Assembly: GCA_021811105.1 (NCBI GenBank)
Contig: JAJZPM010000036.1
Location: 1-38,024, forward strand
Origin: Nitrospirota bacterium
GTDB taxonomy: Bacteria; Nitrospirota; Thermodesulfovibrionia; Thermodesulfovibrionales; UBA6898
Length of the DNA stretch: 38,024 nucleotides
Direction: 5' to 3'
Within the stretch, counting starts at the first letter, position 1. Each line of letters begins with the position of its first letter. The notes beneath the pieces were generated by a model. It was not told where the DNA came from, ran no database searches, and saw only the letters and a list, made by a program, of their open reading frames with translations. A program made the position numbers and the translations under genes. Shown here piece after piece: positions 2,316-2,798 of this stretch.

Positions 2316-2344
2316 TTGAAATTTTTCCGTACAACATTGATAAT
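2316..2344 (+). promoter_or_regulatory. Sigma-70 type promoter of the rhodanese gene
   Basis: TTGAAA (2316-2321), a 17-bp spacer and GATAAT (2339-2344) match the consensus at five of six bases in each hexamer. The start site would be near 2351. GGAG at 2355-2358 and the ATG at 2367 follow, so the leader would be very short. Confidence 0.6.
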
Positions 2345-2366: not shown

Positions 2367-2798
2367 ATGAAAGAAAATAGTAGAATGAGGCGTCTGTTCT
2401 TCAGTGCTTCGGCTGTTCTGGTCGTACTGCTCCTCTTTGCGGCGACCACAGAGAAGGGATGCTCGTTTCCTCAGGCGGCAATGATTCCAAAGGAACAGTT
2501 GAAGACCATGCTGAATGACCCGGCGGTCGCCATTATCGATCTTCGTCTAAACCGGGACTGGAACGCGGCTGATCGAAAGATTCCGGGTGCGGTCCATGAG
2601 GACCCGGATCATATCGCGGATTGGGCGGGGAAATATCCGAAGGACAAGATAATCGTCCTTTACTGTGCCTGACCGGACGAGATGACGAGTGCCGGTGCGG
2701 CACTGGAGCTGATGAAGATGGGATACGAAAAAGTCTACGTGCTCAAAGGCGGCTGGAATGAATGGCTCAAGGCAGGCTTCCCCGTGGAGAAAAAGTAG
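2367..2798 (+). CDS. Exported rhodanese-like protein, probable selenoprotein (in-frame TGA read as Sec)
   Basis: The reading frame runs from the ATG at 2367 (GGAG 8 nt upstream) to TAG at 2796-2798, with one in-frame TGA at 2670-2672. Read through, it gives 143 residues: a hydrophobic signal or anchor (about 9-27) and one rhodanese domain (about 38-140). Before the TGA comes DKIIVLYCA, the catalytic loop. After it come PDEMTSAGAALELMKMGY and VLKGGWNEWLKAGFP, the normal end of a rhodanese. In the related YCxCP subfamily the TGA position is Cys, so the product would carry C100-A-U102-P. Rhodaneses move sulfane sulfur or bind selenium at this loop. A hairpin at 2688-2704 fits a bacterial SECIS. 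Sequencing error or a Cys-to-stop mutation cannot be excluded. The stop codon abuts the stop of the convergent gene at 2799. Confidence 0.8.
2688..2704 (+). promoter_or_regulatory. Candidate bacterial SECIS hairpin in the rhodanese gene
   Basis: AGTGCC (2688-2693) pairs perfectly with GGCACT (2699-2704). The 5-nt loop is GGTGC, with G in the first two positions and a following U, as reported for bacterial SECIS loops. The loop begins 21 nt after the TGA (2670-2672), within the usual spacing for SelB-dependent recoding. It lies inside the coding sequence, as bacterial SECIS elements do. Confidence 0.7.

Follow-up and report, generated by a model that had tools for sequence, protein, structure and literature searches.

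The gene analysed here raises a single question: does the TGA inside its reading frame encode selenocysteine (Sec), or does it mark a gene that is truncated, damaged or misread? The gene lies in the window, the 38,024-nt stretch of Nitrospirota DNA under analysis, which is contig 25 of a 3.94 Mb genome (G000; 93 contigs, rated 100% complete). On the forward strand, positions 2367–2798 read MKENSRMRR...IIVLYCA-TGA-PDEMTSAGAALELMKMGYEKVYVLKGGWNEWLKAGFPVEKK-TAG, with the TGA at 2670–2672 as the single internal stop and the TAG at 2796–2798 as the terminal one. Ordinary ORF calling with the standard code yielded 101 aa ending at 2672, the truncation by automatic gene callers that the initial annotation had foreseen, whereas reading TGA as Sec (U) gave a product of 143 aa. 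The promoter and Shine-Dalgarno sequence described earlier were also recovered, as a sigma-70-like site of which 0.4 were expected in shuffled sequence and as a GGAG preceding the ATG. The features of the locus are listed below.

Table 1. Features of the rhodanese locus, in window coordinates.
Feature	Position	Strand	Basis
Sigma-70-like promoter, TTGAAA-17 nt-GATAAT	2316–2344	+	Consensus scan, 10/12 matches; consensus only
Predicted selenoprotein gene, rhodanese, 143 aa	2367–2798	+	Translation with TGA = U, Pfam Rhodanese, NF041203, AlphaFold2 model
N-terminal signal-like segment (basic start, helix residues 4–24, ATTEKGCS)	2367–2462	+	Sequence; model helix H4–24, low confidence
TGT, Cys100, first (catalytic) Cys of the rhodanese loop	2664–2666	+	Invariant alignment column (U written as C)
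TGA, predicted to be read as Sec, residue 102 (C-A-U)	2670–2672	+	TGA at equivalent codon in 50/50 genes read; TGC/TGT in Cys relatives
Candidate bSECIS hairpin, 6-bp stem AGTGCC/GGCACT (2688–2693/2699–2704), loop GGTGC (2694–2698)	2688–2704	+	bSECIS rules, local energy, covariation

The read-through product has rhodanese sequence both before and after the TGA, as initially annotated: the Pfam Rhodanese match (PF00581, 65.9 bits) extends over residues 43–135 and spans the TGA. The AlphaFold2 model had a mean pLDDT of 87, rising to 95–98 over the domain, and its Foldseek matches were rhodanese structures. In the model, the loop Cys directly follows a strand and Sec102 directly precedes the next helix. 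The protein scored 157.4 bits against the NCBIfam profile NF041203 (rhodanese_LYCAU, "rhodanese-related (seleno)protein"; curated cut-off 115), matching profile positions 4–126 of 126, and carries the LYCAU motif as VLYCAU, with U102 encoded by TGA two residues past the loop Cys. A 2026 review lists this family as rhodanese-like form 3 (CxU) and gives it one Sec (PMC13188914). On the strength of the profile match and this listing, the window gene is a member of an already catalogued, predicted selenoprotein family and is not new in kind. Sharing motif, CxU arrangement and above-threshold score with NF041203, it shows no defining difference from that family, its genome and its N-terminus being its sole distinctive features.

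The N-terminus combines basic residues with a hydrophobic helix, which suggests that the mature domain may lie outside the cytoplasmic membrane and agrees with the exported product initially proposed. Inspection of the N-terminal sequence revealed no clear lipobox in the window protein; several relatives have one (e.g., LLLISC in L032 and VVLISC in L034), and L036 to L039 are without any signal-like N-terminal segment. Up to four LYCAU rhodanese copies were found per Nitrospirota genome, in exported and apparently cytoplasmic forms.

The distribution of the TGA across relatives provided strong evidence on how it is read. Two other MAGs share it, in proteins 98% and 93% identical to the window protein; one scan of contigs for close relatives returned only two. 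Within the same GTDB family, matches were obtained in 20 of 27 genomes at 1e-8, with an in-frame TGA in all those listed, and both family members in which SelA was absent (G008 and G025) fall among the seven genomes that gave no rhodanese match. Across the 296 genomes of the phylum sample, all 28 matches above the NF041203 cut-off carry one or two TGA codons. The 50 genes read comprised 42 with YCxU and 8 with YUxU, none having Cys at the second site (first/second codon TGC/TGA, 31; TGT/TGA, 11; TGA/TGA, 8). SelA was detected in 27 of 28 genomes with a TGA rhodanese, against 128 of 296 overall (Fisher's test, p = 5e-10; genome kinship makes this value too low, although the trend itself is plain). 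Codons past the TGA are under purifying selection, with dN 0.010 and dS 0.165 in the comparison with G018, and dN 0.154 and dS 0.55 in that with G016.

One genome (G047; 430 contigs) combines a TGA rhodanese (L068) with no detected SelA. Since SelA is present in two genomes of its genus, an assembly gap is the likely cause.

A pseudogene or a sequencing error, in which a lost or misread Cys codon would need only a single-base change (TGC or TGT to TGA) and the draft state of the 93-contig assembly might seem to invite one, is vanishingly improbable, since the same TGA recurs across separate MAGs and across 50 divergent genes, which already refutes it, and selection has preserved the codons downstream. 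A genuine stop is extremely improbable as well. The standard code does provide a 101-aa ORF, whose product would have to function without the active-site helix; however, conservation extends past the TGA as far as the C-terminus (G128, G129 and W133 invariant in the alignment, P139 nearly so), and the model indicates that truncation would leave a domain lacking the last helices of the fold.

Sec insertion also requires the corresponding machinery, whose absence the initial annotation had named as an objection. That objection fails, as selA, selB, selC and selD were all found in the genome. The tRNA-Sec(UCA) has an 8-bp acceptor stem and G73, and profile search placed selB (373 bits) and selA (614 bits) next to each other on contig 37. 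SelD is itself a predicted selenoprotein, having an in-frame TGA after SSCAG (L016; G000 contig 19, 38459–39376, − strand).

The genome further encodes a tRNA-Cys(GCA) with a tRNA-Sec-like shape and U73, scoring 62 bits to the tRNA-Sec model (L002:1497–1591; G000 contig 10, 25953–26043, − strand). It belongs to the selC* class of tRNA-Cys, which has been described in Nitrospirae before. Other bacteria are known to have members of this class with a UCA anticodon (PMC7609411), and together with the tRNA-Sec-shaped tRNA-Cys of this genome these lend some colour to the idea that the UGA is decoded as Cys rather than Sec. This is nevertheless very unlikely: the selC*-like tRNA here reads UGC and UGU through its GCA anticodon, on which ground we rejected it as the decoder, and the tRNA with the UCA anticodon is an ordinary selC bearing G73, found alongside SelA, SelB and SelD.

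The TGA is followed by a hairpin. Published rules for bSECIS elements specify a loop of 3–9 nt, a stem of 4–16 bp, a G among the first two loop nucleotides, a distance of 16–37 nt from the UGA and an MFE of at most −7.5 kcal/mol (PMC13188914). The hairpin of the window gene falls within every one of these limits (loop GGTGC or GTG, 21–22 nt, −9.6 to −12.6 kcal/mol), which upholds the SECIS-like element proposed initially. The 6-bp stem and GGTGC loop exist as first described; the 21 nt given for the start of the hairpin is the distance to the loop, and the stem begins after 15 nt.

Within the family, the inner four stem pairs persist in 41 to 48 of the 48 distinct sequences, and all 48 have a G within the first two loop positions. 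Hairpin pair 21–33 covaries (16 C-G and 16 U-A of 37), both positions being synonymous third positions, and its covariation score exceeded all 500 shuffles, figures inflated by kinship, as well as every slid control. Other results temper the weight of the hairpin. A bSECIS-type hairpin of equal stability follows 12 of the window's 1309 TGA triplets and appears in 214 of 3000 sequences (7%) that encode this peptide with synonymous codons, while the 48-nt MFE structure of the window gene excludes the hairpin (−13.2 kcal/mol versus −12.6 kcal/mol for the local element). Cys relatives also retain a similar hairpin, so its presence is owed in part to constraints on the encoded residues or to a Sec-containing ancestor. 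We therefore rejected the hairpin as stand-alone proof, given the stable recodings and its retention in Cys relatives; that of the window gene taken by itself is modest to weak evidence, whereas the conserved TGA is strong evidence.

Comparison with Cys-containing relatives placed the TGA where the initial annotation had expected it, at the second loop Cys of YCxCP rhodaneses: the related proteins L079, L081, L097, L098 and L099 have Cys (TGC/TGT) at this position. Four of them (L079, L081, L097 and L098; family f27) are DedA-type proteins that end in a YCxCP rhodanese domain, which share the loop and 35–38% identity with the window protein. They differ in having Cys at both loop sites, in their longer open frames, which suggest a fusion, and in scoring below the NF041203 cut-off. 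No f27 genome occurs among the selA carriers of the phylum sample examined. L046 (G015) joins a DedA-type protein to a Sec rhodanese, and L095 (G041) joins one to a related Sec domain. In L094 (G084), the Sec position is occupied by Arg (AGA), likely through recent Sec loss.

Better-known rhodaneses share the fold of the window protein, namely the GlpE-type single-domain rhodanese (1gmx) and the persulfide dioxygenase-rhodanese fusion (5ve3). These families are not known to have a Cys or Sec two residues past the loop Cys. GlpE is cytosolic. TsoB (NF045694), a rhodanese/DsbD fusion-like selenoprotein (UxxxxU), is likewise a rhodanese-type selenoprotein, but its Sec spacing differs, and the window protein scored 31.6 against its cut-off of 805. 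A second rhodanese type, with an in-frame TGA five residues past the loop Cys (YCRGxxU), was observed in L040, L047, L048, L049 and L085; the two that were scanned, L047 and L085, had the N-terminal part of TsoB as their best NCBIfam match, far below its cut-off.

Taken from these comparisons, insertion of Sec at codon 102 of this NF041203-family (LYCAU) rhodanese is very probable. Upon arrival of the ribosome at the UGA of codon 102, SelB carrying Sec-tRNA-Sec(UCA) would bind the hairpin just 3' of the UGA and insert selenocysteine, as the encoded machinery and the conservation suggest, and translation would continue to the TAG at 2796–2798. The loop of the putatively exported domain would then place Cys100 where rhodaneses have their catalytic residue, with Sec102 two residues on. 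The C-x-U pair would most likely form a selenenylsulfide redox couple that reduces or relays sulfane sulfur or a disulfide held on Cys100. The product is most likely a small exported C-x-U redox or sulfane-sulfur protein; a C-x-U redox role alone is somewhat favoured.

Alternatively, the Sec protein might carry selenium or sulfur outside the membrane, as a selenotransferase, instead of acting as a C-x-U redox protein. The rhodanese fold with its intact loop Cys is compatible with such a function, as is the handling of sulfane sulfur by rhodaneses in general, but we consider it doubtful, as no neighbouring gene ties the protein to the uptake or use of selenium. The reading preferred above does not require the selenium binding or transfer that was suggested initially. 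Upstream of the gene lie a DUF3617 gene and a terminator-like site, and downstream a convergent gene for arginyl-tRNA-protein transferase. No conserved partner gene was found in the neighbourhoods of the window gene and its relatives, whose contexts vary, so that the neighbourhood gives no functional clue.

Beyond the C-x-U arrangement, part of the family has a second TGA. In L029, L038, L071, L076, L078, L080, L100 and L101, the catalytic Cys codon, six nt before the usual TGA, is also TGA (YUxU). In the read-through alignment (A2), U was written as C, so column C100 appears invariant although L029 and L038 have TGA there. On a tree of 49 proteins, the YUxU state changes five times, all five changes being forced by well-supported branches; there were thus at least five gains or losses across the tree. 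No description of a UxU rhodanese was found in the literature searched, which does not prove its absence elsewhere.

It is conceivable, though unlikely on present evidence, that the LYCAU rhodaneses of Nitrospirota form a selenium-dependent system for sulfane sulfur that has undergone repeated duplication and is often exported, and whose catalytic Cys has itself given way to Sec on several occasions (YUxU). If this were true, the LYCAU family would serve as a test of how selenium at each position of the loop benefits a rhodanese.

For the window gene itself, reading the TGA as Sec puts right an annotation that standard callers would cut short, and the comparisons lend solid support to a selenoprotein family known from prediction only. 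The copy number, the exported and apparently cytoplasmic forms and the catalytic Cys-to-Sec changes make it possible to test directly what selenium contributes to rhodanese chemistry.
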